The notes under the pieces: generated by a model
The model's input: the letters and a program-made list of their open reading frames with translations, nothing else
What the model was told of the DNA's origin: nothing
Databases searched by the model: none
IMG/VR virus record: IMGVR_UViG_3300010367_000143
Coordinates: 1-22,594 of that record
DNA length: 22,594 nucleotides
Strand: one strand, 5' to 3'
Source of the DNA: a virus
In this document: positions 1,965 to 21,267 of the stretch, in pieces
Layout: every line of letters starts with the position of its first letter
Numbering within the stretch: the stretch's first letter is position 1
Position numbers and translations under genes: made by a program

Positions 1965-2117
1965 ATGCCCGGCAGGCAACGCCGCTTCGCGTCGAGGGCC
2001 CAGTGGAGGGCCATGTTCGCGCAGAGGAAGCCGTTCGCCAGAAGGTGGGCGCATCGAAACCAGCGAAGCGCCCCGTACCGGTCGCTACCGCGTCGTAAGG
2101 GCGTCCGACGCCGCTGA
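1965..2117 (+). CDS. 50-aa Arg-rich basic protein
   Basis: ATG 1965 follows an exceptionally strong binding site: GGAGGTGATCC at 1953-1963 is complementary to the 16S rRNA 3' end over 11 bases, with the GGAGG core 7 bases from the start. The product begins MPGRQRRFASRAQWRAMFAQ, ends RRKGVRRR, and is very basic. Small proteins with the FASRAQWR...RRWAH pattern recur in Streptomyces elements and actinophages. Their role is not established; nucleic-acid binding is an inference from charge only. The last 33 bp overlap the convergent 76-aa gene on the other strand. The frame also opens at ATG 1908, but the binding site supports 1965. Confidence 0.75.
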   Translation: MPGRQRRFASRAQWRAMFAQRKPFARRWAHRNQRSAPYRSLPRRKGVRRR

Positions 2118-2315
2118 ACCGCGCGAGCCCCCGCCCACCCAACTCTCCCCGTCCTCGTCCCAGCGCAGCCGGTCACTCGGATCCCCGTACTCGGGATCGC
2201 TCTCCTGGCAGACCTCGCAGAGGGCGCTGTGCTGCTCCTCCGGATCGTGCCCGGGCGGCAGGTCGCAAAAGGACCTCCCGTGCGTGTGCCGCAGCGTGGC
2301 CCCGCAGACGCTCAC
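2085..2315 (-). CDS. 76-aa Cys/His small protein, last gene of the packaging operon
   Basis: GTG at 2313-2315 overlaps the stop of the 67-aa gene in a GTGA arrangement, indicating translational coupling and fixing the start. The product starts MSVCGATLRHTH and contains CDLPPGHD near residues 18-25, an His near 30, then CEVC at about 34-37. The Cys and His spacing suggests one small zinc site, a layout common in Streptomyces proteins that carry a C-x-LPxGH...H motif. The acidic, Gly/Ser-rich tail looks disordered. Function unknown. Its 3' end overlaps the convergent 50-aa gene. Confidence 0.7.
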   Translation of the reverse strand: MSVCGATLRHTHGRSFCDLPPGHDPEEQHSALCEVCQESDPEYGDPSDRLRWDEDGESWVGGGSRGSAASDALTTR

Positions 2316-2515
2316 GCCTCGTCCCACCACTCCAGGCCCGGGACGAGCCGGATCCCGTCGAACTCCTCGGCAGGCTTGAAGAACCCGCAGCCCGGAACCT
2401 CGCACTTCCAGCCCAGCCGCCTCGGATCCTTCACCAGCAGATGCTGATGCCGCTCCGCCCACTCGCCGAGCAGCGGGCCGAACGCGTACACCATGCTGTC
2501 CAGGCTGTGGTTCAC
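2312..2515 (-). CDS. 67-aa small protein with CEVPGC motif
   Basis: GTG at 2513-2515 overlaps the portal stop codon as GTGA, so it is probably coupled to portal translation. The 67-residue product begins MNHSLDSMVYAFGPLLGEW and ends PGLEWWDEA. A C-x4-C pair sits in KCEVPGCGFFKPAEEFDG, near residues 38-43. I see no second Cys pair, so a complete zinc ribbon is not supported unless it dimerises. No known function. Its position directly behind the portal suggests a phage-head or packaging accessory role, but that is inference. Confidence 0.7.
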   Translation of the reverse strand: MNHSLDSMVYAFGPLLGEWAERHQHLLVKDPRRLGWKCEVPGCGFFKPAEEFDGIRLVPGLEWWDEA

Positions 2516-4224
2516 GCCGCCTTCGCCTGCCCCTGATTATCGTCGGCCTGGTCGCCGGGCTCCTGCCCGTCCCCAGCATCCTCCAGGGCGCCGTCCCCGC
2601 CGTCCGCTGCCGGATCGTTCTGCGGGTCCTGCCCGCCACCGGTGTTGAACGGGTCGCCGGCCGGGATCGGATTCGCCACCTGCTTGTCGTCCCGGATCCG
2701 GGCGACCTCCTTCAGGACCTCTTCCTCATCCCACTCCGGCCGCAGCGTCTTCACCTTCATATAGGTGGAGATCGCGCCCGCCGTCTCCAGGAACGACAGC
2801 GTCCGCCCGACGGCCTCCGGGTCCGGCTGTACGGCCTGCGGCCACGTCGCGGTCAGCTCCGCCGCCGGGTCCACGCCCTTCGCCCTGCAGTGCACGACGT
2901 CCACCATCATCGTCGCCGTCACCAGATCCAGCAGCGCCGGCCGCTGATACAGGATCTTCGTCCCCCGGGTCGTCAGGGACTCTTCCTTACGCGCCACGAC
3001 CTCCGTCGCCGTCGCCGCCACGGTGCCCTCGTCCCCAAACGACTGCGCCGAATACCCGGCAGACGACAGGATCTGCTTCCGCAGCGCGTTGCACGTCCGC
3101 TCATGCTCATCCACGCGGATCGCGAACTGGTTCATGGCCAGCGCGGCCGCGCCCGATCCGTCGTCCAGCATGTTCAGCTGCACGAAGACTTCACGGTCCA
3201 GGTCGAACATGCCACCCGTGCCCGGCCCGTCGGTCTCCAGCATCGACTGCGGCAGCATGATCCGCGCCTTACCCAACCGCAGATCCCGCATCCAACTCGT
3301 CCAGGCCTCGTCGAGCGCCCCCAGCAGCGGCTCAATCCCCGCGAAGTCGGAGCGCCCGAACGGGACCGCCTCCGGGATGTGCCCCCACCCACGGTTGGGG
3401 CGGATGTTCGGCAGGTAGGCGACCAGCAGCCGGTCAACCTGTGTATCCACCATCCCCTTGTCGTTCACCCGGCCGGCCAGCCCCTCCGTCTCCGGATGGT
3501 CCGCCAACGCCATCGACATACCCAGGACGTCCGCATCGCCCTTGTACAGCCCGTACTCGATCGACCCGGGCTCATGCCGCTCCAGCAGCCGCCACACCTC
3601 CGACCCTCCGGTCGGAGAGTCCAGTTGCCGCCACACGGTCGCCGCCGCGAGGATCCCCCACTTCCACTCCGGGATCACCGCGTCCGGGCCGAGGATGTCC
3701 CACCACGGCCGCGGCCGCAGGCTGACATCCCACACCACCCGCACGTACACCCCCGACAGGGCGGACGCCTGCTCCGTGCCCTCCCGCATCGTCGCGTGCC
3801 CGCGGTCGTCCAGGTACCGCTTGATCTGCTCCGTCGTCGACTTCGCCAGCCCCGCATCCGTAGTGGAGTCGGAGTCGACGGTGACCGTGGGAATGTCCGT
3901 CCACAGCAGGTTCGCCGACAGCTCCGCCACGTCCGCGGCGATCGGCACGTGCAGCTTCGCCTGCGGCTGACCCGGCGTCACCGGCTCCCCCCAGAACATC
4001 CGCGCCAACCCGCCGACGATGCCGCCCCGGTACTGGCTGGGCTTGTTCAGGTCGAAGAACTCCCGCGCCCGCGGATTGGCCGCGTACGAGCCCGGCCCGC
4101 CGTACACCTGCGCCAGATGCGCGGTGTCCCCGCCGTACCAGGCCCGCCACACGTCCATGTCGGCGAACGGCTCAGCGAACTGGATCGGGGGCCAGGGGGT
4201 CTTCCCGGACGTCGGCAGCGGCAT
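2512..4224 (-). CDS. Phage portal protein (SPP1 gp6-like), 570 aa
   Basis: The portal forms the dodecameric ring at one capsid vertex through which DNA is packed and ejected. ATG 4222-4224 is chosen because AAGGAG lies about 7 bases upstream; an upstream in-frame start would overlap the large terminase end. The N-terminus contains MDVWRAWYGGD and RGGIVGGLARMFWGEP, followed by LHVPIAADVAELSANLLW and a central region with PEWKWGILAAATVW. The latter part carries helical SAGYSAQSFGDEG and ATEVVARKEESLTTRGTK. This arrangement is typical of actinophage portals, and the length is normal. The C-terminus, from about residue 515, is Asp/Gly/Gln-rich and probably disordered. It follows the large terminase by 25 bp on the same strand and is coupled to the 67-aa gene downstream. 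Confidence 0.95.
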   Translation of the reverse strand: MPLPTSGKTPWPPIQFAEPFADMDVWRAWYGGDTAHLAQVYGGPGSYAANPRAREFFDLNKPSQYRGGIVGGLARMFWGEPVTPGQPQAKLHVPIAADVAELSANLLWTDIPTVTVDSDSTTDAGLAKSTTEQIKRYLDDRGHATMREGTEQASALSGVYVRVVWDVSLRPRPWWDILGPDAVIPEWKWGILAAATVWRQLDSPTGGSEVWRLLERHEPGSIEYGLYKGDADVLGMSMALADHPETEGLAGRVNDKGMVDTQVDRLLVAYLPNIRPNRGWGHIPEAVPFGRSDFAGIEPLLGALDEAWTSWMRDLRLGKARIMLPQSMLETDGPGTGGMFDLDREVFVQLNMLDDGSGAAALAMNQFAIRVDEHERTCNALRKQILSSAGYSAQSFGDEGTVAATATEVVARKEESLTTRGTKILYQRPALLDLVTATMMVDVVHCRAKGVDPAAELTATWPQAVQPDPEAVGRTLSFLETAGAISTYMKVKTLRPEWDEEEVLKEVARIRDDKQVANPIPAGDPFNTGGGQDPQNDPAADGGDGALEDAGDGQEPGDQADDNQGQAKAA

Positions 4225-4249
4225 GACAGTCTCCTTCGAGGGGGTTGGG

Positions 4250-5509
4250 TTAGGCGGCGAGGGCGAGATGCCGCTGCCACAAAGCACGAGTGGTGAAGAT
4301 CCCGTAGCGGAGCGCGTCCACCCCGTGGTCGGCCACCTTCAACGGCTGCTCGACACCGCGCAGGGCAGCCTGGTCATCCCAGCTGTAGCCGCCGATCTCC
4401 TGGATCAGCGCTTCACAGGAGGCGTGGACGAGGAGCTTGTTCGAGGCGAGGACGCTCGAGACGGTGCGGATCCCGTCCATCACGTCGTTCTTCGCCGGCG
4501 TCGGGGTGAGCTTGTCCCGCTTCAACTGGGCCGTGAACGAGGCGGCGGAGGGGTCGACGGTGATGAACTGCGGGCGTACCGCGCCGATGTCGGGAACGTC
4601 GTTGAGCCAGCCCCGCAGGCGTTCGGAGTACTCCGTGTCGGTGAGCTGCTTGCGGGTTTGCCGCGCCTCGTACCGCCACTCCGCCGCCGCGTACAGGCGC
4701 CGGTCCCGGCCCAAGCCGAGCAGCACGGCATGGAACGGGTTGCTCGTGCCGTAGTCGACACCGAGCGAGATCCACCGGTGGATGCCCTCACGCGGCAGCG
4801 CGGTGACGATGTGCCGCTCCCGGTCCCACGAGTCGTAGATCGCGCCCTCCGCCGCCACCCACTCGCCCAAAATGAACCGGCGGAAGAACAGCCCTTCGTG
4901 GGAGGCCTTCATGTCGGCGACGTACTCGGGGTCCAGGAACGGGTTGTCGTCGATGGTGAAGCTGAACCGCGCGACCGGCTTCCGGCCTGCCTGGGACAGC
5001 CAGTCCCGCATGAACCAGTGCGCAGGGTTGTCGGGGTTGGTCGTGCAGTACAGCTGAGCGCCCCGCACACTCATACGGCCATAGAGCTGCTCGAAGAAGA
5101 CCTGAGGAACGAGCGTCACCTCGTCGACGTACGCTCCGCACACCGTCATACCGCGGATCTTCGGTTCGCTTTTGGCGTCGTTCGCGCCGATCACATGCAC
5201 CGTGCGGCCCAGGATCACCGCGGTCGGAGCGCCCGGCGTGTAGTGCACGTGCCGGGCGATCTCCCCGAACAGGGCCACGTCCTGCATCGGCAGGAACAGG
5301 TTGCGGTGGATCGTCTGCGCCGTCTTCCCGACCATCACCAGCTCGCCCGTGGTCGGCGCACCCGCAATGAAGATCAGCCACTTCAGCAGAGAAGCGATCG
5401 TCTTACCCGACCGGATCGCGCCCTCCCAGCAGCAGATCTTCGCCGTCGACTCCGCGACAGACCGGATCTGCTTCCGGGACAGAGGCATCGACTCCAGCGT
5501 CGTCGTCAC
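4250..5509 (-). CDS. terL: Large terminase subunit (ATPase/nuclease), 419 aa
   Basis: This is the motor that translocates phage DNA into the procapsid through the portal and cuts it. Walker A is GAIRSGKT (residues 30-37), Walker B is AYVDE (126-130), and the coupling segment is TTNP (156-159). The C-terminal RNase H-like nuclease has Asp in GVDYG (252), VDPSA (319) and DHGVDALRY (394, 398). All expected catalytic elements are present and the length is usual. The start used here is GTG 5507-5509, four bases after the upstream stop. ATG 5486-5488 (MPLSRKQ) has a GGAG about 5 bases ahead and is a good alternative that removes seven residues. Confidence 0.96.
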   Translation of the reverse strand: MTTTLESMPLSRKQIRSVAESTAKICCWEGAIRSGKTIASLLKWLIFIAGAPTTGELVMVGKTAQTIHRNLFLPMQDVALFGEIARHVHYTPGAPTAVILGRTVHVIGANDAKSEPKIRGMTVCGAYVDEVTLVPQVFFEQLYGRMSVRGAQLYCTTNPDNPAHWFMRDWLSQAGRKPVARFSFTIDDNPFLDPEYVADMKASHEGLFFRRFILGEWVAAEGAIYDSWDRERHIVTALPREGIHRWISLGVDYGTSNPFHAVLLGLGRDRRLYAAAEWRYEARQTRKQLTDTEYSERLRGWLNDVPDIGAVRPQFITVDPSAASFTAQLKRDKLTPTPAKNDVMDGIRTVSSVLASNKLLVHASCEALIQEIGGYSWDDQAALRGVEQPLKVADHGVDALRYGIFTTRALWQRHLALAA

Positions 5510-5513
5510 CGGG

Positions 5514-6056
5514 CTACGACCCGCCGTCCAGGCCCTGCTCGGCGTCGGCAGCCTGCTGCTCGTCCTCCTGGCGCGTGTACGCCACCAGCGCCTCGCCCAG
5601 CGACCCCAGCATCGACTTCGCCGAGTCCAGGTTCGACGACTCCTCCGCCGGCACCAGCTTCAGCGACCGGTCGATCGCCATGCCCGCGGTACCCATGAGG
5701 GCGCGCTTCTCCGCTGGCGGCGCCTCGTCGAAGGTGTGGTCGTTGTACTCGTTCTGGGCGCCCCCGAAGCTGTAGACCGTGGTCGGCTCCCACATCTGTG
5801 CGCGCAGCTTCTCCGCGTCGCCCAGGAGGTCTTCGGCGAGCAGGGAGCGCCGCTCCGCCAGGTCCGCCAGGCGGGCCTCGGTCGCGGCCTGGATCTTCGA
5901 CCGGTCGAAGGTGAGGCCCAGGTGCTCGGCGGTGCGGGACACCATGACCGGGGGGACGCCCATCTCGCGGGCGATCCGGTTGCGGCCGTAGTTCTGTGCG
6001 TGCAAGTCCCGGAGTTCGTCGAAGCGGTCCGGGTCGATGGTTCCTCCGGGCATCAT
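5514..6056 (-). CDS. Small-terminase-like helix-turn-helix protein, 180 aa
   Basis: A small terminase recognises the packaging site and loads the large subunit. ATG 6054-6056 overlaps the preceding stop as ATGA and has GAAGGA upstream. Residues 20-48 or so (LHAQNYGRNRIAREMGVPPV and the following helix) read as a helix-turn-helix. Next come a long charged helical segment (about 55-85), then WEPTTVYSFGGAQNEYNDH and MGTAGMAIDRSLKL. These features match actinophage proteins that sit directly before the large terminase. Assignment rests on the HTH and position; no catalytic residues exist to check. The stop lies four bases before the terL start, so the two are probably co-translated. Confidence 0.75.
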   Translation of the reverse strand: MMPGGTIDPDRFDELRDLHAQNYGRNRIAREMGVPPVMVSRTAEHLGLTFDRSKIQAATEARLADLAERRSLLAEDLLGDAEKLRAQMWEPTTVYSFGGAQNEYNDHTFDEAPPAEKRALMGTAGMAIDRSLKLVPAEESSNLDSAKSMLGSLGEALVAYTRQEDEQQAADAEQGLDGGS

Positions 6057-6964
6057 GCGGTCCTTCGGGCTTGGGCGGGGACAGAGGCGCGGTGGGCGGC
6101 GCGGGCGCGCTGCTGCAGCAGGACGGGCAGCGGTGTGCCGGTGGTGTTGGTGGTCCAGCGGGGATGCCACGGGATCACGACGCACCTACAGTGCGGATGC
6201 CTGGGAGGCCCGGGGATTGCGGTGAGGAAGACGGTCCGCTCGGGGGCCAGAGAGAGTCCGCCGGGGAAGCGGCCGCCGATCCGGATGGAGCGGCCCGCGT
6301 ACGCGGCGCAGGCGGGGCAGGCGCCCGGTTCGGCCACCCACAGCATCCGCACCCCCGGCCCGAGGTAGCGGGCCACGACCAGGGCGGCGTTCGCGGCCGC
6401 GGAGGTGATGGCGACAGCCACGCCGGCGGTGATGCGGGTGACCGCGCGCCGCGCCCTGGAGAACACGGACTTCACGCCGGACAGCCCATACGCCGTCAAC
6501 GCCGCCGTGGTGAGCAGGGCCAGGGCGTGGGAGTGCTCCTCCTGCACCGCCGCCGGAATCCCCCCGGCGGCACGGTCCGCGGCCACCCCGGTCTCGGGCG
6601 GGATGTCGGGTGGGGGAACACCGCGCAGGATTGCGGTGATCCTGGAGGCATGTTGGATGCCGAGTGCTGCAGCGCTGTAGGCGGCGCGCTGTGCCTCCGC
6701 CATGGCGTACGCGCCCTGGCCGTGGAAGGCGCCGGCGAGGGCTTTGCGGATGTGCTCGATGAGCGCCGCCAACTCCGCCCGGGCGGGGATGTGCTGGCTG
6801 GTTGTGGTGGCGAGGAGCCAGCGGTTGGTGGCGTCCGCCTGCGCGTCGGCGAGGGCCTGGGCGAGGGGGCGGGCTGCGGTGGCGGCGTGGCGGTGCTCGA
6901 GGGCCCTGAGTTGGGCGGGCTGGCGCTGCGCCAGGTCGGCGATGTTCTTGGTGGACTCGACCAC
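6053..6964 (-). CDS. MuF-like minor head protein, about 303 aa
   Basis: MuF-like proteins are minor capsid components, often attached to the portal and carried into the head. The C-terminal half shows the typical pattern: WVAEPGACPACAAYAGR (CPAC at about 216-219), a following glycine loop, then PPRHPHCRC (about 256-261). The N-terminal half is helical and Ala-rich. Starts are ambiguous. GTG 6962-6964 has GAGGGG just upstream but close; TTG 6977-6979 extends it by five residues. It is the first gene of the minus-strand block and its stop overlaps the small-terminase start (ATGA). Lying before the terminase rather than after the portal is unusual for this family. Confidence 0.82.
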   Translation of the reverse strand: MVESTKNIADLAQRQPAQLRALEHRHAATAARPLAQALADAQADATNRWLLATTTSQHIPARAELAALIEHIRKALAGAFHGQGAYAMAEAQRAAYSAAALGIQHASRITAILRGVPPPDIPPETGVAADRAAGGIPAAVQEEHSHALALLTTAALTAYGLSGVKSVFSRARRAVTRITAGVAVAITSAAANAALVVARYLGPGVRMLWVAEPGACPACAAYAGRSIRIGGRFPGGLSLAPERTVFLTAIPGPPRHPHCRCVVIPWHPRWTTNTTGTPLPVLLQQRARAAHRASVPAQARRTA

Positions 6965-7118
6965 ACCAACCCCTCGCAATCCTTCGACCCTAAGGCTGTA
7001 TTGCTTTCTAGCCTTTGATTGTGCAGCATAGACCCAGGGTTTGGGTTAGCATCCATGCCAGACGTGGGCGGCCAAGGTGCCGCGATCAACCACGTCCAGG
7101 CAGCCCAAGGAGGCTCTG
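6965..7118. promoter_or_regulatory. Divergent promoter region between packaging block and head/tail operon
   Basis: The leftward packaging genes and the rightward structural genes both begin here, so the 154-bp gap must supply transcription in both directions or be read through. It has a pocket near 6990-7052 that is clearly AT-richer than its surroundings. Rightward, TTGATT (7015-7020) and TAGCAT (7047-7052) are visible, but their spacing does not fit a standard promoter. Leftward, CTGCAC followed after about 17 bases by CAATAC is a weak candidate. A short inverted repeat ACCCA/TGGGT occurs near 7032-7046. Placement and composition carry the call, not motif quality. Confidence 0.45.
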
Positions 7119-7925
7119 ATGTCGACCCCCGCCCAGCCCGGAACGCCCACGACGGACCCCGGTAACCAGCCGGCCACCCCGCCCGCGCCCCAGGCACCCG
7201 CACCGACTCCGCCAGAGCCGGCCGCACCCGCAGCCCCCGCAACTCCCGCCGAACCGGCCCCGGCCACCGAGCCGCCCGCCGAACCCAAGGCCAAGGCGCC
7301 CAAGTTCGAAGGTGACTTCGACCCCAAGCGGTTCGAAAAGCTCGTCGAGAACCTCCGCGGCGACGTCGAAGCCGAGAAGCAGAAACGCATCGACGCAGAG
7401 AAGACGTTCGAGCAGAGGGCCGCAGAGCAGCAGGCCGACCTCCTCAAGAAGGTCGCCGCCGCATTCGGACTCGACACCGGCGAGGAGAAGCCGCCCACCC
7501 CCGAAGAGCTCACCACCAAGCTGAGCGAAGAGCAGGCCCGGACCAAGGAGTTCGAGGACCGCGCCCGCCAGACCCAGGTAGAGCTCGCCGTCTACAAGTC
7601 GGCAGGGGCACACGGCGGCGACCCGGACGCCCTCCTGGACTCCCGGGGCTTCGCCCAGGCCATCGCCAAGCTCGACCCGTCAGCTCCTGAATTCGCTGCC
7701 AGCGTGGAGCAGGCGGTCAAGCAGGCGGTGGAGGCGAACCCGAAGCTCGCCGTGAAAACGGCAGAGCCGGCCAAGCCCGCTGTCCCCGCGGGCGGTGCGC
7801 CCATGAGCGGGGCCCCGGGTCAGAAGCGGCAGCTGGGTGCGGAGGACGTCAAGCGGATGACCCCCGAACAGATCACCAAGGCCGTAGAAGAGGGACGACT
7901 GACGTCGTACTTGGGCGGCCGGTAG
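7119..7925 (+). CDS. Scaffolding-protein-like head assembly protein, 268 aa
   Basis: Scaffolding proteins guide coat assembly into a procapsid and then leave it. ATG 7119 has AAGGAGG about 6 bases upstream. Residues 1-60 are Pro/Ala/Thr-rich and disordered. A long charged coiled-coil region follows (about 65-165, with FDPKRFEKLVENLRGDVEAE and LSEEQARTKEFEDRARQ). A Pro/Gly linker comes next, and the C-terminal helix MTPEQITKAVEEGRLTSYLG. That C-terminal pattern directly before the coat gene is typical of actinophage scaffolds. No protease motif is visible. It is the first gene of the rightward operon and is separated from the coat gene by 16 bp. Confidence 0.85.
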   Translation: MSTPAQPGTPTTDPGNQPATPPAPQAPAPTPPEPAAPAAPATPAEPAPATEPPAEPKAKAPKFEGDFDPKRFEKLVENLRGDVEAEKQKRIDAEKTFEQRAAEQQADLLKKVAAAFGLDTGEEKPPTPEELTTKLSEEQARTKEFEDRARQTQVELAVYKSAGAHGGDPDALLDSRGFAQAIAKLDPSAPEFAASVEQAVKQAVEANPKLAVKTAEPAKPAVPAGGAPMSGAPGQKRQLGAEDVKRMTPEQITKAVEEGRLTSYLGGR

Positions 7926-7941: not shown

Positions 7942-8802
7942 TTGTCGATCAACAACTTCAAGCCGGAGATCTGGTCTGCCCAGGTTCTGACGGCCCTTCG
8001 CAGCAGCCTCGTCTACGCCCAGCCGCAGCTCGTCAACCGCAACTACGAGGGCGAGATCTCCAGTCGCGGCCAGTCGGTCCACATCACCACCATCGGCGAC
8101 CCGACGATCTTCGACTACGACGCGGGCGACACCATCAACTACGAGGATGTCGAGACCGCGGGCACCGACCTGGTCATCGACCAGGGCAAGGCGTTCGCTT
8201 TCAAGTTGGACGACGTCGACAAGGCGCAGGCCCTGCTGAACCCGATGGCGCAGATGGCGACCAACGCCGCCTACGGGCTGCGTGACAAGGCCGACGCGTA
8301 CGTCGCCTCCCTGTACACCGGGGTGGCTGCCGCGAACACGGTCGGCTCCACCGGCGCCCCGATCGACACGTACACCACGCCGACCGACGCCTACAGCAAG
8401 GTCCTCGTCCCCCTGCGGACCAAGCTGAACCGGGCCAACGTCCCCATGGAAGGCCGCTACGTCGTAGCGAGCCCCGAGTTCATCGGCTCCATGCTCAACG
8501 ACGACCGCTTCATCCGCGCCGACGCGAGCGCCACCACCGAGGGCCTGCGCAACGGCTTCGTCGGCCGCGCCGCGGGCTTCGACATCCTCGAGTCGAACAA
8601 CACCCCCAACCCCAGCGGGGACACGCAGGTCATCCAGGCCGGCTACCCCGGGGCGATCACGTACGCGGAGCAGATCATCGAGACCGAGGCGCTGCGCCTG
8701 CAGAACACCATCGCCGACGCCATCCGCGGCCTCCACGTCTACGGCGCCAAGCTGCTGCGCCCCACCGGGATCGCCGTCGCGTTCGTCAACCCGGCCGCCT
8801 AG
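7942..8802 (+). CDS. Major capsid protein (P22 coat-like, HK97 fold), 286 aa
   Basis: This is the shell-forming protein of the head. It starts at TTG 7942 with AGGAG about 6 bases upstream. The N-terminus SINNFKPEIWSAQVLTALRS is followed by YEGEISSRGQSVHITTIGDP and KAFAFKLDDVDKAQA. The pattern GRYVVASPEFIGSML then precedes VGRAAGFDILESNN, and the protein closes with LLRPTGIAVAFVNPAA. This order matches actinophage coats related to the P22 gene 5 family. The length is on the short side but normal for this group, with no sign of a protease-removed delta domain. That fits the separate scaffold gene upstream. Confidence 0.95.
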   Translation: MSINNFKPEIWSAQVLTALRSSLVYAQPQLVNRNYEGEISSRGQSVHITTIGDPTIFDYDAGDTINYEDVETAGTDLVIDQGKAFAFKLDDVDKAQALLNPMAQMATNAAYGLRDKADAYVASLYTGVAAANTVGSTGAPIDTYTTPTDAYSKVLVPLRTKLNRANVPMEGRYVVASPEFIGSMLNDDRFIRADASATTEGLRNGFVGRAAGFDILESNNTPNPSGDTQVIQAGYPGAITYAEQIIETEALRLQNTIADAIRGLHVYGAKLLRPTGIAVAFVNPAA

Positions 8803-8854: not shown

Positions 8855-9232
8855 ATGGCGCGCACCGCCGTCACCTACACCGCTCTCACCCCCAACGGCC
8901 ACACGTCCGACGTCGCGGGCACCACCATCGACGCGACCCTGGTCACCAACGGCGTCATCATCAACGACGTCGACCCCGAGCGGACCGTGCTCCGCGTCGC
9001 GAACACCGCGACCGGCGCGAAGAACGTCATCGTCCGCACCGGATCCGGCAGCCAGTCGTGGATGGCCGGCCAGGGCGACCTCACCGTCGCCGTGGGCGCG
9101 AACACCGGCAAGGAGTTCGTCGGCCCCTTCACCTCCGCCCGCTTCCAGCAGCGGGGCACGAAGCTGTACGTCGACTTCGAGTCCGGCTTCCTGGGCACCA
9201 TCACGGTCTTCAAGCTCCCCAAGGCGTACTGA
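8855..9232 (+). CDS. Probable head decoration / capsid accessory protein, 125 aa
   Basis: ATG 8855 follows AGGAGG at about 6 bases. The product is Thr/Val/Gly-rich and predicted largely beta: it starts MARTAVTYTALTPNGH, has NTATGAKNVIVRTGSG and VAVGANTGKEFVGPFTS, and ends GTITVFKLPKAY. Beta-rich proteins of this size immediately after the coat gene commonly stabilise or decorate the capsid. That is the basis of the call; the sequence itself does not prove it. The gap of 52 bp from the coat gene holds only the binding site. Confidence 0.6.
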   Translation: MARTAVTYTALTPNGHTSDVAGTTIDATLVTNGVIINDVDPERTVLRVANTATGAKNVIVRTGSGSQSWMAGQGDLTVAVGANTGKEFVGPFTSARFQQRGTKLYVDFESGFLGTITVFKLPKAY

Positions 9233-9234
9233 CC

Positions 9235-9828
9235 ATGGCGGCGCGCGAATACGAAGGAACGGGTGGGCTGCGGCTCACCCTTGAGGACCCGCTGTCCCCC
9301 GAGATGGCCAAGCAGGTCGCCGCCGGGCACCTGCACCCCGTCGACGGCAAGCCCACCGAGGTGGAGGCCGGCGACAAGTCGCTGGTCGTCGTGCACGGCT
9401 CCGAAGCCGACACCGTCAACCGGGTCGGCGACCACCGCCGCGCACCCGGGGAGCGGCCGGGTGAGGGCGCCCTGCCGGGCGAGTGGGCCACCTACGCGGT
9501 CGCCCTGGGTCTGAACGCGGGCCAGGCCTGCACCCTGACGCTCACTCAGCTGCAGGAGTGGGTGGACGCGCACGAGTCGGCGCTCGGCGAAGCCGTCGAT
9601 GCCCCCGTGCCGAACACCGACCCCGAGACGCCGGTGGAGCCACTCCCGGACCGGCCTGCCAAGTCCGCGCCGGTCGCCGACTGGCGTGCCTACGCGATCG
9701 CCCTCGGCATGGACCCGGACCAGGCCAAGGACGCCACCAAGACGGAGTGCCAGGACTACGCCCAGGTCGTCGAGGACGCCCGCGACACCGCGCAGCCCAG
9801 CGAGGACGAGACCGGGGGCCAGGAGTAG
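9235..9828 (+). CDS. 197-aa protein with a duplicated W-x2-YA-x-ALG motif
   Basis: ATG 9235 lies two bases after the previous stop and probably depends on coupled translation. Residues 1-60 resemble a small accessory domain also seen alone in actinophage head modules. Two similar segments of about 30 residues follow: GEWATYAVALGLNAGQACT (from 82) and ADWRAYAIALGMDPDQAKD (from 148). They are separated by an acidic, Pro-rich linker (about 112-147). Each repeat looks like a helix-loop-helix of SAP/HeH type, but I cannot confirm that. A role at the head surface or head-tail junction is inferred from position only. Confidence 0.8.
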   Translation: MAAREYEGTGGLRLTLEDPLSPEMAKQVAAGHLHPVDGKPTEVEAGDKSLVVVHGSEADTVNRVGDHRRAPGERPGEGALPGEWATYAVALGLNAGQACTLTLTQLQEWVDAHESALGEAVDAPVPNTDPETPVEPLPDRPAKSAPVADWRAYAIALGMDPDQAKDATKTECQDYAQVVEDARDTAQPSEDETGGQE

Positions 9829-9830
9829 CC

Positions 9831-10211
9831 ATGGCGCACGCGACGATCAGCGACCTCGAGGCGTGGCTCGCCCCCGAGCCCGCCCCGGCGAACGCGTGGC
9901 GGCTCCTCGAGCAGGCCTCCGACGCGATCGACGGCGCGCTGACCGGCGCCATGTACAGCCCCGAAGACCCCGAAGTCCAGGCCGTACTCGTCAAGGCGTG
10001 TGTGCGGCAGGTCCAGTTCATGATGGACCGCGACGATGAGACGGGCGCCAACTCCGACGTGCAGTCCATGACGGTCGGGCAGCGCTCCATCACCCGCCGC
10101 GCCCCCAACACCAGCAGCAGCGGCGGGCCCGGGGTGCCGGTGGGCGGGCAGGCCGCCCTCGTTCTGCGTAACGCCGGGCTGCTGACCATGTGGCCGCTGG
10201 TGACCGGCTGA
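9831..10211 (+). CDS. Head-tail connector (adaptor) protein, 126 aa
   Basis: ATG 9831 has AGGAG about 6 bases upstream. The helical N-terminus (ISDLEAWLAPEPAPANAWRL, LLEQASDAIDGALTGAMYSP) and VLVKACVRQVQFMMDRD fit the HK97 gp6 / SPP1 gp15 type adaptors that bind below the portal. The Ser/Gly-rich stretch near residues 92-105 is probably a flexible loop. Position right after the head genes and before the stopper fits this. Its TGA shares one base with the next ATG (10211). Confidence 0.8.
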   Translation: MAHATISDLEAWLAPEPAPANAWRLLEQASDAIDGALTGAMYSPEDPEVQAVLVKACVRQVQFMMDRDDETGANSDVQSMTVGQRSITRRAPNTSSSGGPGVPVGGQAALVLRNAGLLTMWPLVTG

Positions 10212-10552
10212 TGCCCGGGCCCATCGGACGCCAGTCCGTCACCGTGCTGGACGCCCCCCTCATGGGCGGCGACTACAACACGCAGGTCCGCGACTGGGAC
10301 CACCCGGCGCGGACGGTCGTGTCCGGCTGCACGATCGACTACACCACCGCCTCCCGTACCCGGCAGGCGGGCGATCAGACCACCACCCGCGCCCAACTGT
10401 TCATGCCCCCACGGGCGATGACGGTCGTGAGTGGGATGCGGGTGGCGTGGGACGGCCGCACCTGGGACGTCGACGGCGTACCCGCCACCCCGGAAGGCGC
10501 GGGCCCGCTGTCCGGTCAGGTCGTCTCCCTGCTGGAGGTGAAGGGCGCATGA
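10211..10552 (+). CDS. Head closure (stopper)-like protein, 113 aa
   Basis: ATG 10211 overlaps the preceding stop by one base. The product is beta-rich: RQSVTVLDAPLMGGDYNTQV, then ARTVVSGCTIDYTT, and MRVAWDGRTWDVDGVPATPE with a closing VVSLLEVKGA. Small beta-barrel proteins with a VTVLRAP-like start and a W-x-G-x-x-W-x-V-D-G segment in this slot are usually head closure proteins that plug the head after packaging. Exact family not verifiable here. It overlaps the next gene by ATGA. Confidence 0.7.
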   Translation: MPGPIGRQSVTVLDAPLMGGDYNTQVRDWDHPARTVVSGCTIDYTTASRTRQAGDQTTTRAQLFMPPRAMTVVSGMRVAWDGRTWDVDGVPATPEGAGPLSGQVVSLLEVKGA

Positions 10553-10884
10553 GCAGCGAAGTCACCGTCACGGTGGAGCTGGACGAGGACGCCATCCACA
10601 ACCTTCCGCTCTCCCGCGAAGTGCAGGACGACCTCGAGCAGCGTATGGACCGCGTCGTCGAGGTCGCTCAGGCGATCGCTCCCGTCGACACCGGCCGCTA
10701 CAAGGCGTCCATCCACCGCTTGCCCGAGCCGGGCCCGGACGGCGAAGTCTCCGTCGAGGCGAACGTGCCGTACGCGATCTACGTGGAGCACGGCACCCGG
10801 CAGACCGACCGCAACGGGCGGTCCATCCACCCGCCCCGCTACACCCTTTCGACCGCTCTCGACGCTGCTGCGGGAGACCACTGA
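10549..10884 (+). CDS. Tail completion / HK97 gp10-like protein, 111 aa
   Basis: ATG 10549 overlaps the previous stop as ATGA. The motif APVDTGRYKASI (about residues 44-55) and PYAIYVEHGTRQTDRNGRSI (about 74-93), followed by HPPRYTLSTAL, is the signature of the HK97 gp10 family. Members sit at the head-tail junction and help join tails to filled heads. The length is usual and no element is missing. Confidence 0.88.
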   Translation: MSSEVTVTVELDEDAIHNLPLSREVQDDLEQRMDRVVEVAQAIAPVDTGRYKASIHRLPEPGPDGEVSVEANVPYAIYVEHGTRQTDRNGRSIHPPRYTLSTALDAAAGDH

Positions 10885-10899
10885 TGAAGGAGTACCGCC

Positions 10900-11148
10900 A
10901 TGGCTGACCCCGCAGACCTGGTCACGCTGAAACTGATCTTCTGGCACAAGGGCAAGAAGCCCGGCGACACCGTCCAGGTCCGCCGGGACGAAGTCCGCTC
11001 CTGGTACGGGTTCGCCGAACTCGTCGACGACGTCGAACCGGCGAAGGCCGACGAGAGCGCGGACACCGGCGCGCAGAAGACCCCCGACAAGGCCGACGAC
11101 ACCAGCACGCCCGCGAAGGCCCCGGCCAAGACGAGCACGGCCAAGTAG
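10900..11148 (+). CDS. 82-aa small protein in the head-tail joining cluster
   Basis: ATG 10900 has AAGGAG seven bases upstream. The first 45 residues contain LVTLKLIFWHKGKKPGD and VRSWYGFAELVDD, which look like a small folded domain. The rest is Lys/Ala/Asp/Thr-rich and probably disordered. Short proteins with a KPGD-type motif recur at this place in actinophage operons, but I know no assigned role. Lying between the gp10-like protein and the tail terminator suggests a junction function; this is inference. Confidence 0.75.
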   Translation: MADPADLVTLKLIFWHKGKKPGDTVQVRRDEVRSWYGFAELVDDVEPAKADESADTGAQKTPDKADDTSTPAKAPAKTSTAK

Positions 11149-11154
11149 CCCGCG

Positions 11155-11595
11155 ATGGTGACGCCGGTTCTCCCCGACAGCAAGCAGATCGCCATCGATC
11201 TGCTGCAGAGCGCGCTCGGCAGTGCCGCGCGCGTCGTCGGCGAGCTCCCGGACCCCGCCGGCTTCGACGCCGAACTTCCCCTGGTGCGCCTCCTGCGCAT
11301 CGGCGGCACCGCCGGGCTACGCGGCTGGGCCGACCCCTCGGCAATCGACCGGCCGCGCTTCTCCGTCGACTGCTACGCGACCGCCAAGCCCGCTCTCGGC
11401 GCCGCGATGCGCCTCGCTATCCGGGTGCGCGGGGAGTGGGAATTGCTGCCCGGCCAGGGCACCGCCGACGGGATCATCACCGCCACGTCCGAGGAGACCG
11501 GACCACAGGACCGGCCCGAAGAACCCAACACCGGGGTTCGCCGGGTCGGCATGACCCTGGGGATGAGCGTTCGCCCACCCCGAGCAACCGCATAG
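11155..11595 (+). CDS. Tail terminator-like protein, 146 aa
   Basis: Tail terminators cap the growing tail tube and contact the head connector. ATG 11155 is six bases after the previous stop and has no clear binding site; GTG 11158 is equally possible, and re-initiation is likely. The fold pattern is alpha plus beta: KQIAIDLLQSALGSAARVVG, LPLVRLLRIGG, DRPRFSVDCYAT, then a helix and GVRRVGMTLGMSVRP. This fits the slot and build of minor tail/terminator proteins that precede the major tail protein. Confidence 0.72.
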   Translation: MVTPVLPDSKQIAIDLLQSALGSAARVVGELPDPAGFDAELPLVRLLRIGGTAGLRGWADPSAIDRPRFSVDCYATAKPALGAAMRLAIRVRGEWELLPGQGTADGIITATSEETGPQDRPEEPNTGVRRVGMTLGMSVRPPRATA

Positions 11596-11605
11596 GAGGC
11601 CCGTC

Positions 11606-12193
11606 GTGGGCAACGCAGACAACATCAAGATCGGCGTCAAGGGCCGCGCCTACGTCGCCGACGTCGGCACGACCTTCCCCACCAGCCCCTTCGTCACCTG
11701 GGGCACCGGCTGGGCCGACCTGGGCTACATGCACCCCGACGGCCTCGAGGAAGCCCTCGGCGAGGACCGCACCGAGATCAACGCCTGGGGCGAGGAAGCC
11801 CCGGTGAAGACCCGCGTCAAGTCCCGCGACGGCTCCTTCAAGATGAACTTCCTGGAGACGACAGCGGAGATGCTGTCCCTCTACTACGCCGTCCTCATCG
11901 CCGACATGACCTCCGTGCCGGCCGTCGTCGGCCCGCCAGCGACCGCCCAGTACCTGTCCTTCGGCACCGGGCAGGCCTCCCCGGGCATCGAGAAGGCCCT
12001 CGGTATCGACATCATCGAGGGCGACGAGATCGAACGCATCATGATCGCCCGCGTCGACGTCAGTGACCGGGGCAACCGCAAGCGCTCCGCCGACGACGCC
12101 TCCGGCTACGAGCTCACCTTCAAGCCGCTCGCCGCACCCTCCGGCGGCCAGGCAGTACAGCGCTTCATCACCAACATCGCCCTCCCGGCGTAA
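11606..12193 (+). CDS. Major tail (tube) protein, 195 aa
   Basis: This is the subunit of the tail tube. GTG 11606 has AGGAGG about 6 bases upstream. The sequence begins MGNADNIKIGVKGRAYVAD, contains WADLGYMHPDGLEEALGEDR and KSRDGSFKMNFLETTAEML, and continues with beta-rich segments to FITNIALPA. This pattern (an N-terminal G-x-AYVA, a DG-x-x-E helix and a long beta sandwich) is typical of actinophage major tail proteins. It is followed by a strong hairpin, which agrees with its need for high expression compared with the chaperones. Confidence 0.9.
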   Translation: MGNADNIKIGVKGRAYVADVGTTFPTSPFVTWGTGWADLGYMHPDGLEEALGEDRTEINAWGEEAPVKTRVKSRDGSFKMNFLETTAEMLSLYYAVLIADMTSVPAVVGPPATAQYLSFGTGQASPGIEKALGIDIIEGDEIERIMIARVDVSDRGNRKRSADDASGYELTFKPLAAPSGGQAVQRFITNIALPA

Positions 12194-12203
12194 CCCCCCG
12201 AAC

Positions 12204-12257
12204 TGGTGGTCCGCCGCGCTCACATCCCTGGGCGGGGGCGGCGCCGGCGGACCACCA
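12204..12257 (+). terminator. 13-bp perfect inverted repeat after the major tail gene
   Basis: TGGTGGTCCGCCG (12204-12216) is exactly complementary to CGGCGGACCACCA (12245-12257), with a 28-base loop. It starts ten bases after the stop at 12193 and lies in a 119-bp non-coding gap, the longest in the rightward operon. A C/A-rich stretch follows rather than a T-run. It is probably a partial terminator that lowers transcription of the chaperone and tape measure genes, or an mRNA-stabilising 3' structure for the abundant tail transcript. Nothing else stands out in 12258-12312. Confidence 0.65.
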
Positions 12258-12312
12258 CCCCACCCCACAAGCTCCCCGCCCTGAGCCCCTGCCCTAGAAG
12301 AGAGAACCCGCC

Positions 12313-12726
12313 GTGTCCAAGCCCAACCGCAAGGTCGTCCGCCTCCAGCAGATGCGCGCCCAGCGCCAGGCCGCCGCGAAGGTCCAGTTCGTCGACATCG
12401 TCTTCAACAACGAACAAGGCCTCGAGGAGACCTGCACCTTCCCCGTCCAGGACGACTGGCCGCTGGAAGTCATCGAGGAAGTCGAGGAGAAGGGCGGCAA
12501 CGCCAACCTCAACGTCCTGCGCGAACTCGCCACCCCCAAGGAGGCGTTCGACCGGCTGGTGAAGGTCGCCAAGCTCACCGTCGGCGAACTCAAGGACCTC
12601 ATCAGCGAGATGGACGGCGAGGCGGGCACCAGCCAGGGGGAAGGCTCTGGCTCCTCGCCCTCCTCCGAGAGCACGCCGGAGCCGTCCGAGCCGACCTCCA
12701 GCGCTACTACCCCGGCCGCCGCCTAG
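12313..12726 (+). CDS. Tail assembly chaperone, short form (lambda gpG-like), 137 aa
   Basis: This is the upstream member of the two-frame chaperone pair that coats the tape measure during tail assembly. GTG 12313 has only a weak AGAAGAGAG site upstream. Residues 1-105 are folded and contain VQFVDIVFNNEQG, FPVQDDWPLEVIEEVEEKGG and KVAKLTVGELKDLISEMDGE. After about residue 106 the frame becomes Ser/Pro/Glu/Thr low complexity and stops at TAG 12724-12726. The downstream reading frame is meaningful from the same place, which marks the switch point. The length is normal for the G-like product. Confidence 0.88.
   Translation: MSKPNRKVVRLQQMRAQRQAAAKVQFVDIVFNNEQGLEETCTFPVQDDWPLEVIEEVEEKGGNANLNVLRELATPKEAFDRLVKVAKLTVGELKDLISEMDGEAGTSQGEGSGSSPSSESTPEPSEPTSSATTPAAA
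12636..12642 (+). other. Candidate -1 programmed frameshift site (GGGGGAA)
   Basis: In the chaperone frame this reads G GGG GAA. Slipping back one base keeps GGG on GGG in the P site. The new frame then reads GRLWLLALLREH, followed by AVRADLQRYYPGRRLEEFW, and enters the 12741 reading frame without a stop. An aDLqryY segment is a hallmark of the T part of actinophage chaperone fusions. The A-site codon change (GAA to GGA) is not ideal, so the exact slip point could differ by a few codons; the need for a -1 shift is clear from the frames. Confidence 0.65.
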
Positions 12727-12740
12727 AGGAGTTCTGGGCC

Positions 12741-13169
12741 ATGTCCTGGGGTGAAGGAACCATGAACTGGGCCGAGCTCCGCGACCTGGTCACCAACCTG
12801 CCCGAGGACTCCGCCACGAAGGCCGCCTACGCAGGCGACAGGGACGGCCACCGGTGGAAGCAGGACACCTACCTGCAAGCCACCACGGTCAATCTGCTGC
12901 AGCTCATCGCGGCCACCCTGTGGAAGGCCCACCTCAAGGGCGATCCGCCGGAGATGACACCGGTCCAGCCGCCCAAGCTCGCCGCGGACGAGGAACGCGA
13001 CCAGCTCGCCGAAGCACGCACGGCCCGCAACCGGGCGCTGCTGGACAGCCTGCGCCCGCAGCAGGACCCGGCCGTCACCGCGGCGAAACAGGCAGAGACC
13101 GAGCAGTGGCTGGCCAGGATCCGCGAACTGGAAGCAGCCAAAGCCGCACAGCCGCAACCGCAGTCGTAG
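12741..13169 (+). CDS. Tail assembly chaperone, downstream (T) part, made mainly by -1 frameshift from 12313
   Basis: The frame is open well upstream of ATG 12741 and its upstream coding sense (W-x-x-ALLREH...DLQRYY) joins the gene at 12313 through a -1 shift. The fusion would span 12313-13169, about 285 residues. From ATG 12741 alone it is 142 aa. Residues after this ATG include MNWAELRDLVTNLPEDSATK and LQATTVNLLQLIAATLWKAH, which are typical of the fusion part. The C-terminus is charged and helical, ending AAQPQPQS. AGAGGAG about 9 bases before the ATG allows independent initiation as well, but I regard the fusion as the main product. Confidence 0.82.
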   Translation: MSWGEGTMNWAELRDLVTNLPEDSATKAAYAGDRDGHRWKQDTYLQATTVNLLQLIAATLWKAHLKGDPPEMTPVQPPKLAADEERDQLAEARTARNRALLDSLRPQQDPAVTAAKQAETEQWLARIRELEAAKAAQPQPQS

Positions 13170-13187
13170 AAGAGAGGGGAGGGCAGC

Positions 13188-16100
13188 ATGGCCGAAGCCA
13201 CCGTCGTCGGCTCCACCCGGGTCAGTCTGATCCCGGACATGAGCCAGTTCGGCGACCGGCTCCGTATCGAGCTGCCCTCCGCAATCCGCGAACCCGCAAA
13301 AATCGCAGGCGACCTTGCCGGCGCCACGATCCGCACGGCGATCACCAAGCATCTGGCCGCGCCCATCGCGGTGAAAGTCAAAGCGTCCCTGGACGACAAG
13401 GCCGCCACCCTGGCCTTGAAGAACCTGACCAAGCAGCGCACCGTCACGGTCATCGCGCAGGTCGACGACAAGACGGCTATCGCCTCGTTGCGAAACCTCA
13501 CCCGGGACCGCACCGTCAAGGTGATCGCGGAGCTGGACGACAAGGCCGCCACAACGGGCCTGCTCACCCTGACCAGGGATCGCACGGTCAAAGTCCTTGC
13601 GGAGCTGGACGACAAGGCCGCCACCGCCGCCCTGAACAGGCTGACCAGGGACCGCACAGTCAAAATCAAGGTGGAGATCGACGACGGCTCCGCCAAGACC
13701 CAGCTGGGTGTGCTGTCCGGGAGACAGACCGTCGAGGTCGTCCCGAAAATCCAGCAGGCCGCCTACAACACCGCGAAGAGGCAGCTGGACCGGCTCACCG
13801 CCGACCGCACCGTCAACATCCGCGCCTCCGTCGACACCCGCGTTGCCGCCGCCGAGATCCGTAACCTGATCCAGCGCCGCCAGGTCCGTATCGGCGTCGA
13901 CGTCGACACCCGGGTTGCTGCCGACAGCCTCGCCAACCTCACCCGGCGCCGGCAGATGACCGTCCAGGCCCGCGCGGACACGGCCGCCGCCGACACGGCC
14001 CTGCGGCTCCTCACCCGCGATCGCACCGTCGACGTCCGGGTCCGCTCCACCGGCCTGGCCGCCCTCACCACCGGCCTCAGCAGTCTCGGCGGAGGCGGAG
14101 GCGGCGGAGGCGGCCTCGGGATCCTCTCCAGCCGCATGGTGGCCCTGGCCGGCGCCGCACTCTCCGCGCTCCCCTCCATCGCCTCCCTGGCCTCAGCGCT
14201 CGCCCAGGTGGGTCCCCTGGCCGCGACCGCCGCGCCCGCGGTCGCCGCGCTCGGCGGCGCGTTCGCCGCGTTCAAGGTCGGCACCATGGGCGTCGGGGAC
14301 GCCATCAAGGCCGCCTTCACCCCGGTCGCCTCGGAGGCTTCGAAGGCGGCCACGGCCACCCGGCAGGTGGAAACCGCGCAGCGCTCCCTCACCCGCGCCC
14401 AGCAGTCCCTCAAGGACGCCCAGGTCCAGGCCGCCGACCGGGTCAAGCAGGCCAACCAGCAAGTCGCCACGGCCGAACGCGACCTCACCGCCGCGCAACG
14501 CGATGCACGGCTGGCCCAGCAGGACCTCAACGCGGCACGCCACCAGGCCGTCCGTGACCTGCAGGACATGAACAACCAGCTCAAGGACTCCCGCCTCGAC
14601 GAGGAAGGCGCCACCCTCGCCGTCCAGCAGGCCGAGGAAGACCTCGCCCGCACCCGCTCGGATCCCACCGCCACCCAGTTGCAGATCCAGCAGGCCGAAC
14701 TCGCCAAGGAGCGGGCGGTGCAGTCCCTGGACGAGCAGCGCCTGGCCACCAATCGGCTCGAGAAGGACACCGCGGCCGCGAACAAGGCCGGCGTCGAGGG
14801 CAGCAAGACGGTCCTGCAGGCCAAGCAGCAGGTGTCCAACGCCGATCAGCAGGTCGCCGACCGGCAGCGCTCCCTCGTCCAGGCGCAGGCCGATGTGGTC
14901 AAGGCGCAGGTGGAAGGACAGCGGCAGATCGCCGACGCCCAGCAGGCTGTCGCTGATGCCGCCCGCAGTGTCGCCGACGCCCAGCAGAAGGCCGCCACGC
15001 AGGCCTCCGCACTGGATACGGCCTTGTCGAAGCTGTCGCCGAACGCGCGCGCGTTCGTCGGCCAGCTGCAGGCGATGGCCCCGGCGTGGCGGGACATGAA
15101 GCTCGACGTGCAGGACCGCCTGTTCTCCGGTGTCGCCACCCGCCTCGGCACGGTGGGCGCCCAGGTCCTGCCGACCGTGCGCCGCGGCCTGATCGGCGCC
15201 GCCGGCGAACTCAACACCATGGGCAAGAACGCGCTCACCGCCGTATCGAACCTGCAGAAGACGGGGCAGCTCAAGCAGATCTTCGACGGCGTGCAGCAGT
15301 CCCTGGGCAACGTGTCCCGCATCCCCGGCCAGATGGTCACCGGGTTCGCCCAGCTCAGCATCGCCGCGCAGCCCGCATTCGACCGCATCACCACGGGCGC
15401 CGCAAGCATCGTCGACAAGGTGATGGGCAAGCTCTCGGCCAGCCTGAAGGACGGCAGCCTAACCGACGCCATCAACACCGCCCTTGACGTCGCCGTCCAG
15501 TTCGGGAAGGTCCTGGGGGACATCGGCGGCATCCTCGCCGGGGTCTTCAAGGCGGCGTCGGCGGCGGGCGGGGACTTCTTCGGGACGATCGGCGCCGCCC
15601 TCGCGGAGATCCGCCGCATCATCGAACTCCCCGAAGTGCAGGCCGCCCTCACCCAGATCTTCAAAGCGCTCAACGCGATCGCGCAGCTGTTCGCCGGAAC
15701 GCTGGGCGCGGTCATCCAGGCGGTACTGCCGCTGCTCGCCGCGCTCGCCCCCGTCGTCCAGGAACTCGCCGAGAAGTTCGGGCCCGTCCTCGCTCAACTC
15801 GCCGGCGCGCTCGGCAAAGCCCTCATGCCGGTTATCGACGCGCTGCTGCCTGTCCTCCTCAACGTCGGGGACATCCTGGTCGGTCTGGTCACCGCCCTGA
15901 TGCCGCTCCTGCAACCGCTCGGGGACCTGATCGGGGCGATCGTCACCGCCCTCGCACCCGTGATCTCAGCCCTCGGGGTACAGCTGGTGCCGGTCATCGC
16001 CGCACTGGCGCAGGGCCTGACGCCGGTGATCGGATCCCTGGTCCCGGCCGTGCAGACGCTGGGCCAGTTCATCGGCCAACTCGCGCCGCTGTTCCCGCAG

Positions 16101-19100: not shown

Positions 19101-19139
19101 GAGGACTCGCTGCACCGGCCCGTCGTCGTGGGAGGCTGA
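13188..19139 (+). CDS. Tape measure protein with M23 peptidase and lytic transglycosylase domains, 1983 aa
   Basis: This protein sets tail length and passes into the cell envelope at infection. ATG 13188 has GGGGAGGG upstream. Parts in order: residues 69-287 hold nine units of about 24 residues; 301-309 is a nine-Gly run; 384-607 is a long coiled coil; 830-1036 is strongly hydrophobic, helical and Pro/Leu-rich. A Gly motif region with FARGG and VLPGWSTWRDGDDQLVPMRR lies near 1203-1240. An M23 peptidase domain has HTGLD (H1396, D1400) and HLHLE (H1475, H1477). A transglycosylase domain has E1536 in NQESGGNP, then GLMQV, ending at AAYNRPGGY. The C-terminal 350 residues are helical. All expected metal and catalytic residues are visible. 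By the usual rule of about 1.5 angstrom per residue, the tail would be long, roughly 250-300 nm. Confidence 0.97.
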   Translation: MAEATVVGSTRVSLIPDMSQFGDRLRIELPSAIREPAKIAGDLAGATIRTAITKHLAAPIAVKVKASLDDKAATLALKNLTKQRTVTVIAQVDDKTAIASLRNLTRDRTVKVIAELDDKAATTGLLTLTRDRTVKVLAELDDKAATAALNRLTRDRTVKIKVEIDDGSAKTQLGVLSGRQTVEVVPKIQQAAYNTAKRQLDRLTADRTVNIRASVDTRVAAAEIRNLIQRRQVRIGVDVDTRVAADSLANLTRRRQMTVQARADTAAADTALRLLTRDRTVDVRVRSTGLAALTTGLSSLGGGGGGGGGLGILSSRMVALAGAALSALPSIASLASALAQVGPLAATAAPAVAALGGAFAAFKVGTMGVGDAIKAAFTPVASEASKAATATRQVETAQRSLTRAQQSLKDAQVQAADRVKQANQQVATAERDLTAAQRDARLAQQDLNAARHQAVRDLQDMNNQLKDSRLDEEGATLAVQQAEEDLARTRSDPTATQLQIQQAELAKERAVQSLDEQRLATNRLEKDTAAANKAGVEGSKTVLQAKQQVSNADQQVADRQRSLVQAQADVVKAQVEGQRQIADAQQAVADAARSVADAQQKAATQASALDTALSKLSPNARAFVGQLQAMAPAWRDMKLDVQDRLFSGVATRLGTVGAQVLPTVRRGLIGAAGELNTMGKNALTAVSNLQKTGQLKQIFDGVQQSLGNVSRIPGQMVTGFAQLSIAAQPAFDRITTGAASIVDKVMGKLSASLKDGSLTDAINTALDVAVQFGKVLGDIGGILAGVFKAASAAGGDFFGTIGAALAEIRRIIELPEVQAALTQIFKALNAIAQLFAGTLGAVIQAVLPLLAALAPVVQELAEKFGPVLAQLAGALGKALMPVIDALLPVLLNVGDILVGLVTALMPLLQPLGDLIGAIVTALAPVISALGVQLVPVIAALAQGLTPVIGSLVPAVQTLGQFIGQLAPLFPQILLALMPLLPPLAQLTVSLLNLALQVITPLMPLIVMLAGLLTTSLATAIGTLVPIIATVIGWIKGFVDAVTAAVKWIVDKFKALFDILLGHSIIPDIVLGAISWFSRLWKRLGEIVGALKDGIVKRFSQVKDGAGKIWSGLWDHVTSVASDTWKSLRRGWDTFADSLTGSFKTVVKGLGKIWGGLSDYVKAPIKFWIDTVYNKGVTKVWNATAGKIPGIPDLKPIGLPKGFARGGINTGRARGGVLPGWSTWRDGDDQLVPMRRGEGVYVSEVMADPYERQRLYALNAAAMRGQHPSTARAQMGFAGGGIFGDIGSAIGSAGSSIASGVGGVLKKGTDAVRGTLGDLAAKAFKPIKKGITGALGSNVNTYPGMIGAAPLYIIDKAIDYIRGKDIPDASGQWIKPVNVPYGTRFGVKGSMWSSGRHTGLDFPAPVGRKVVAVDGGTVKSATNGGPYGKHVMVNHGGGLQSLYAHMSAIAAKAGDGIQQGGRIGSVGATGNVTGPHLHLEARVNNKAVDPMPYLTGSGTGDGGSGVQRWKGVVTQALGQVHQSLGLVNTTLRRMNQESGGNPKAVNRTDSNWKAGHPSVGLMQVIEGTFKAYAGKYKNTGPKMYGVSIDPMANIYASMRYALANYGSLAAAYNRPGGYARGGVLGGGTRIGRGLPRGYATGGVIKVGGKRIDTGPLAASVGADFLKQLTGTAAQIDAAMSKVATAVKNAFKGVKTTLDDRLLASIKKSNAHLDLLAKQRDAIAAKISQANTLAADSTTQASQFAALTSLPNGGNTFDAGGILSGLNVRLGQIKAFGANLQILAKRGLSKVLLQQIIAAGPDGGASYAQALVDATPQQMKDINATQAAITTASTAYGKDAADAMYDAGSQSGKGYLAGLKAQETAIDKAMSDLAKKIQAAIKKALKIKSPSRVFAQLGAFTVQGFTQGVREATPEAALATARMAAVVRASAAATAARIENTSTSATYGDRVLNYSATVREQASRASILAALALEDSLHRPVVVGG
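13392..14048 (+). repeat. Nine tandem 24-residue (72-nt) units in the tape measure N-terminus
   Basis: Units start with DD or DT and end in a beta-like stretch, for example DDKAATTGLLTLTRDRTVKV. Eight are 24 residues and the sixth is 27. Units 2-4 are close at the DNA level as well: the 26-base block from 13527 recurs at 13599, exactly 72 bases later. Later units (DTRVAAAE..., DTRVAADS..., DTAAADTA...) are more diverged, pointing to recent duplication of the middle units on an older array. Confidence 0.9.
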
Positions 19140-19141
19140 CC

Positions 19142-20077: not shown

Positions 20078-20093
20078 GAGGAGGCACACCCCT

Positions 20094-21266: not shown

Positions 21267-21267
21267 C

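Follow-up and report, generated by a model that had tools for sequence, protein, structure and literature searches.

An inverted packaging block headed by a MuF-type gene in a lineage of Streptomyces phages and phage-plasmids

Few features of tailed phages are as conserved as the order of their head genes. The virus fragment analysed here, referred to as the window, comprises 22,594 bases (positions 1–22,594 of IMG/VR virus record IMGVR_UViG_3300010367_000143) and carries its packaging genes on the strand opposite to its scaffold and coat genes. This raises the questions of whether the layout is peculiar to one genome, how it arose, and whether packaging and assembly are controlled together or apart. 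An earlier note on this DNA had described the small terminase, large terminase (TerL) and portal genes as a block inverted relative to the head/tail operon, with a MuF gene placed first. All gene positions and strands given there were reproduced, with the packaging genes on the minus strand and scaffold and coat on the plus strand (Table 1), and the gene calls bear out the inverted block with MuF at its head.

Table 1. Features of the window discussed in the text.
Feature	Position	Strand	Evidence and remarks
Small Cys/His-containing ORF (CysB)	2085..2315	-	From the translation; GTGA overlap with CysA
Small accessory ORF with two Cys (CysA)	2312..2515	-	GTGA overlap with portal
Portal	2512..4224	-	phrog_533, E 2.6e-101
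TerL, PBSX type	4250..5509	-	Pfam Terminase_6N, E 7e-15; phrog_2
HTH small-terminase-like protein	5514..6056	-	phrog_5536; ATGA overlap with MuF
MuF-domain minor head protein, 303 aa	6053..6964	-	Opens the packaging operon
Divergent intergenic region, candidate control region	6965..7118		Lies between the start codons of MuF and scaffold
Dyad, candidate operator	6987..7020		Left arm 6987–6996, 14-nt spacer, right arm 7011–7020
GGGTTAGCATC, -10-like TARCAT box for the rightward operon	7043..7053	+	Conserved; fixed offset from the right arm
Scaffold-like protein	7119..7925	+	Opens the head/tail operon; phrog_15186 (function unknown)
Major capsid protein (coat), P22 gp5-like family	7942..8802	+	phrog_267, E 1.6e-73; Phage_capsid_4
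Connector and tail genes	8855..22293	+	Tail tube 11606–12193; tape measure 13188–19139

The leftward genes are tightly coupled, as expected of the settled operon that the earlier note had seen in them: the ATGA overlap and both GTGA overlaps are present, and the small-terminase-like (TerS-like) gene and TerL are separated by 4 nt. The window TerL matches that of Streptomyces phage Piccadilly at 52.6%, and the scaffold-like gene matches a scaffold-annotated gene of phage Vondra at 42%. The HTH assignment of the TerS-like protein is backed by a match to 2lvs (E 2.4e-5) and by an AlphaFold2 model (pLDDT 88) with a predicted HTH and long helices. A fold search against the PDB gave no significant match for this protein, with the TerS of G20C at E 0.49. 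The label "small terminase" is thus a putative one, based on the place of the gene and on its homologue in collinear phages, an HTH gene upstream of TerL. The two small Cys genes are not core to the clade: CysA, which has no Pfam match, has homologues in some clade members only, and plasmid NZ_CP107973 has no small Cys genes after its portal. A role for them as an Ogr-like activator was considered and dropped, as they are not conserved across the clade. In the rightward operon, the tape measure (1983 aa) contains a Peptidase_M23 domain at residues 1395–1489 and an SLT transglycosylase domain at residues 1533–1607. An Rfam scan of the window gave no match.

TerL, coat and MuF served to collect relatives among viral contigs and genomes, and the gene order of these relatives was read with the window proteins and profile models. 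At coat identities of about 68% or more, all loci are divergent wherever both sides lie on the contig; all loci with a coat identity below 60% and a detectable TerL are collinear. Among loci with both markers, 52 are inverted and 17 collinear, with some contigs counted more than once. Across these loci the layout is invariant inside the clade and absent outside it. In a TerL tree of the quick type, with long outgroup branches, the inverted members form one side of one branch (SH-aLRT 95), which corresponds to one change. The outgroups are all collinear, with the order TerS-TerL-portal-minor capsid-scaffold-coat, and we infer that this order is ancestral. Outside the collected loci, 50,697 phage records held no close isolated member of the lineage, no coat with more than 45% identity to the window coat, and no match to the window MuF at E 1e-5. 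A close MuF was found in 3 of 393 sampled genomes of the genus Streptomyces, one of which is the genome that the query locus came from. No relevant report of the inverted layout was found in the literature on actinophages.

The chance that the layout is an artefact of assembly, or a local inversion that happened recently in a single genome, is negligible, and nothing was found in favour of either. The diagnostic motif was found at the junction in 36 or more distinct sequences, never twice per locus, and the layout recurs in complete plasmids from different projects. Coat and terminase lie on opposite strands in four complete circular Streptomyces plasmids of 88–93 kb, and the full inverted order was found in the three circular plasmids that were read gene by gene. 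An assembly inversion at the junction is excluded by the number of independent assemblies that show it, among them several complete plasmids. The earlier note had allowed that many relatives with this exact layout would make it a lineage trait; such relatives exist, and the layout is consequently read as a lineage trait. The data are consistent with a stable, widespread trait of a Streptomyces/Kitasatospora phage and phage-plasmid lineage that has a single origin.

Within the inverted clade two types of TerL occur, as seen when loci L103 (26541–27791), L046, L055, L058, L076 and L077 are set against the window (4250–5509). The two types have about 60% and 83–93% identity to the window TerL, while the coat stays at 80–96%; TerL has thus apparently been exchanged by recombination. 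In the Streptomyces europaeiscabiei plasmid (L103), the TerS-like gene and TerL are separated by a gene for an HNH endonuclease (25861–26547).

The carriers of the module are of more than one kind. NZ_CP107973 and NZ_CP046906, which are close relatives, are complete circular replicons with partition genes and the virion module. Complete plasmids carrying the module resemble the phage-plasmid pZL12 (phage ZL12, NC_013420) in their transfer ATPase (77.5%), GntR regulator (85%), lysin (71%) and type III polyketide synthase (63%). The Streptomyces plasmids pSLE1 and pZL12 have been described (PMC4487206). In contrast, the virion module of pZL12 is unrelated and collinear, with a phrog_38 TerL and an RNase E-like small gene, and pZL12 gave no match to any structural gene of the window. 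Many clade members are without ParA, which, set against the plasmids with a pZL12 backbone, indicates the diversity of carriers. The transfer-ATPase and GntR markers are mostly absent or weak across the virus records, so not all clade members have that backbone. The inverted module is also present in two chromosome-sized contigs (G102:C1 near 5.70 Mb and G597:C1 near 3.03 Mb), and the lineage therefore has integrated as well as plasmid forms. The polyketide synthase on the phage-plasmid NZ_CP046906.1 (PhlD; locus L115, 20765–21835) is the one with 63% identity to that of pZL12; type III polyketide synthases are reported only for plasmid-borne prophages (PMC10023795).

How MuF came to stand first in the packaging operon depends on what kind of gene it is. 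The window protein matches PF04233 below the Pfam cut-off, and 24 of 29 homologues match this family. A search of BFVD with its AlphaFold2 model (mean pLDDT 89) gave matches to viral minor-capsid/MuF models with a probability of 1.00, while a fold search against the PDB gave no significant match. A CxxC and an HxxCRC motif are invariant. In the outgroups, the place between portal and scaffold is taken by Phage_min_cap2 (PF06152) in all seven cases, a family absent from those matched by the MuF members of the window clade (n=29). The Phage_min_cap2 HMM likewise had no match in the two complete plasmids examined in full. Relatives of the window MuF, several of them near full length, occur in phages with the families phrog_38, phrog_104 and phrog_10, whose terminase, portal and coat are different, and there they occupy the usual place after the portal. 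Compared with these relatives, the MuF proteins of the inverted clade form one side of one branch (SH-aLRT 99) in a tree of the same quick type.

The earlier note had called for an inversion plus a relocation of MuF, which is not borne out. The order -portal, -TerL, -TerS, -MuF, +scaffold can be reached from the standard order by two local reversals, of the block and then of MuF in place, so a relocation is not forced even if no replacement took place. Relocation of an ancestral MuF is moreover unneeded, as the outgroup gene at that place belongs to the Phage_min_cap2 family. The protein comparisons point to replacement, in which another phage lineage probably supplied a MuF-type gene in place of the old minor-capsid gene. 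This is likelier than relocation, given the different Pfam family, the occurrence of the nearest outside MuF relatives in phages whose terminase and coat are unrelated, and the absence of Phage_min_cap2 from the two plasmids. The apparent swap could alternatively reflect extreme divergence of the old gene. It is unlikely that MuF is simply the ancestral minor-capsid gene, which would have been relocated or turned round where it stood and have since diverged. Its scaffold neighbour is the same as in the outgroups, the two local reversals would suffice for it, and the window and outgroup genes have a MuF domain in common, which alone aligns in a profile comparison (probability 71). Against this, BLAST detects no similarity between the window MuF and the outgroup minor-capsid genes, the Pfam families differ (PF04233-like versus PF06152), and the MuF relatives are located in unrelated virion modules.

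Streptomyces siphophages of the SV1/Vondra type, Jace, ObLaDi and Hiyaa have TerS-like, TerL, portal and scaffold genes homologous to those of the window, and some also a homologous coat. Unlike the window, all of them are collinear and have Phage_min_cap2 at the place of MuF. Actinobacterial prophages with a phrog_38 TerL (L160, L165, L171 and others) share the MuF family with the window at about 31–42% identity, but have the standard collinear order and a different terminase, portal and coat.

The junction between the two operons is itself conserved. Thirty distinct MuF-scaffold gaps of 148–162 bp, start codons included, can be aligned, and an ungapped 67-nt core is common to 28 of them. Its pattern is ATTCAAAGG-(spacer with CTTGC)-GCCTTTGATTGTGCAGCAT-...-GGGTTARCATC. 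The arms of the dyad are complementary at 5–10 of 10 positions in these junctions; the window, with 7 of 10, has one of the weaker left arms. The TARCAT box keeps an identical offset from the right arm in all 28 junctions, and its distance to both start codons varies. Identity to the window is 0.85–1.00 for the right 20-mer and 0.69–0.85 for the 67-nt core, compared with 0.42–0.70 at fourfold-degenerate sites of MuF. Such sites in the scaffold gene are 0.58–0.86 identical, so that, measured against the scaffold gene, conservation is far higher in the right part of the core only. No second copy of the motif above background was found in the complete plasmids, pZL12 or the collinear outgroups. 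A scan of the junction with the sigma70 consensus gave no promoter. The deepest inverted members, L060 and L061, keep the layout and do not have the dyad; their MuF-scaffold gaps have another conserved junction in common, TGTACAAGTAGTGTGGCG ... TATATGATCC. The layout is thus older than the 67-nt core, or the core was lost in these two.

A comparable divergent plan is found in phage P2 (Peduovirus, NC_001895), a myovirus of Escherichia coli. In its late operons P-Q and O-N-M-L, TerL and portal are read leftward and scaffold and coat rightward, as in the window. The divergent gap of P2 measures about 170 bp. Its two start sites are 111 bp apart, and a single activator site is annotated between them for both promoters. 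The TerS of P2 (M) belongs to the head operon, whereas the TerS-like gene of the window belongs to the packaging operon, and the leftward operon of P2 is without a MuF gene, whereas that of the window is headed by one. The phages are unrelated, and the likeness looks convergent.

From this comparison and from the conservation of the junction, joint control of both operons is proposed. The 154-bp gap would act as one bidirectional late control region, on which a single regulator, probably bound to the CAAAGGC-N14-GCCTTTG dyad and its GTGCAGCAT extension, would activate both operons together. Such shared switching would resemble that of P2, where one activator site serves both operons. An inversion need not uncouple packaging from assembly if one bidirectional region controls both. 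The separate transcriptional control suggested by the earlier note, with two independent promoters and packaging timed apart from assembly, is unlikely. It would suit operons on opposite strands and the rightward -10-like box, for which no obvious partner is seen on the leftward side at the mirrored distance. Both promoters would, however, have to fit into 154 bp around one rigid conserved dyad core, and P2 has one activator site for both operons; a strongly conserved single-copy element fits a shared region of that kind.

Conservation alone does not tell a promoter from a packaging site. The main rival to shared control is that the junction is chiefly a cos or pac site bound by the HTH TerS-like protein, not a promoter region, in which case the virion chromosome would start or end between MuF and scaffold. 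A single-copy, highly conserved dyad would suit such a site, and the records of the collinear phages Vondra and Hiyaa begin at the HTH/TerS gene. This too is improbable: a fixed TARCAT box by a divergent gene pair, at variable distances from the start codons, looks regulatory, and the dyad is not kept in L060 and L061. Contig ends near the junction, examined as a check for cos, do not cluster at one position. Less probable again is a dual role, in which the 67-nt core would serve at once as shared late operator and TerS-like recognition site; a single element at the junction of the rearrangement would then set both the start of packaging and late transcription. Shared control is favoured over these alternatives because the rigid, single-copy conserved core combines a dyad with fixed TARCAT spacing and has a precedent in P2. 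Taken jointly, a single-origin inversion, replacement of MuF and shared bidirectional late control are considered moderately probable.

The inverted packaging block is thus maintained throughout a Streptomyces lineage, in which the MuF gene seems to have been swapped as well. The divergent plan for packaging and head genes is already known from P2, and we read the Streptomyces lineage as a new variant of it. If shared control holds, the lineage would be an independent case of the P2-style solution, in which two operons are kept in step by one bidirectional control region. The 67-nt element offers a handle for seeking the late regulator of this family of Streptomyces prophages and phage-plasmids.
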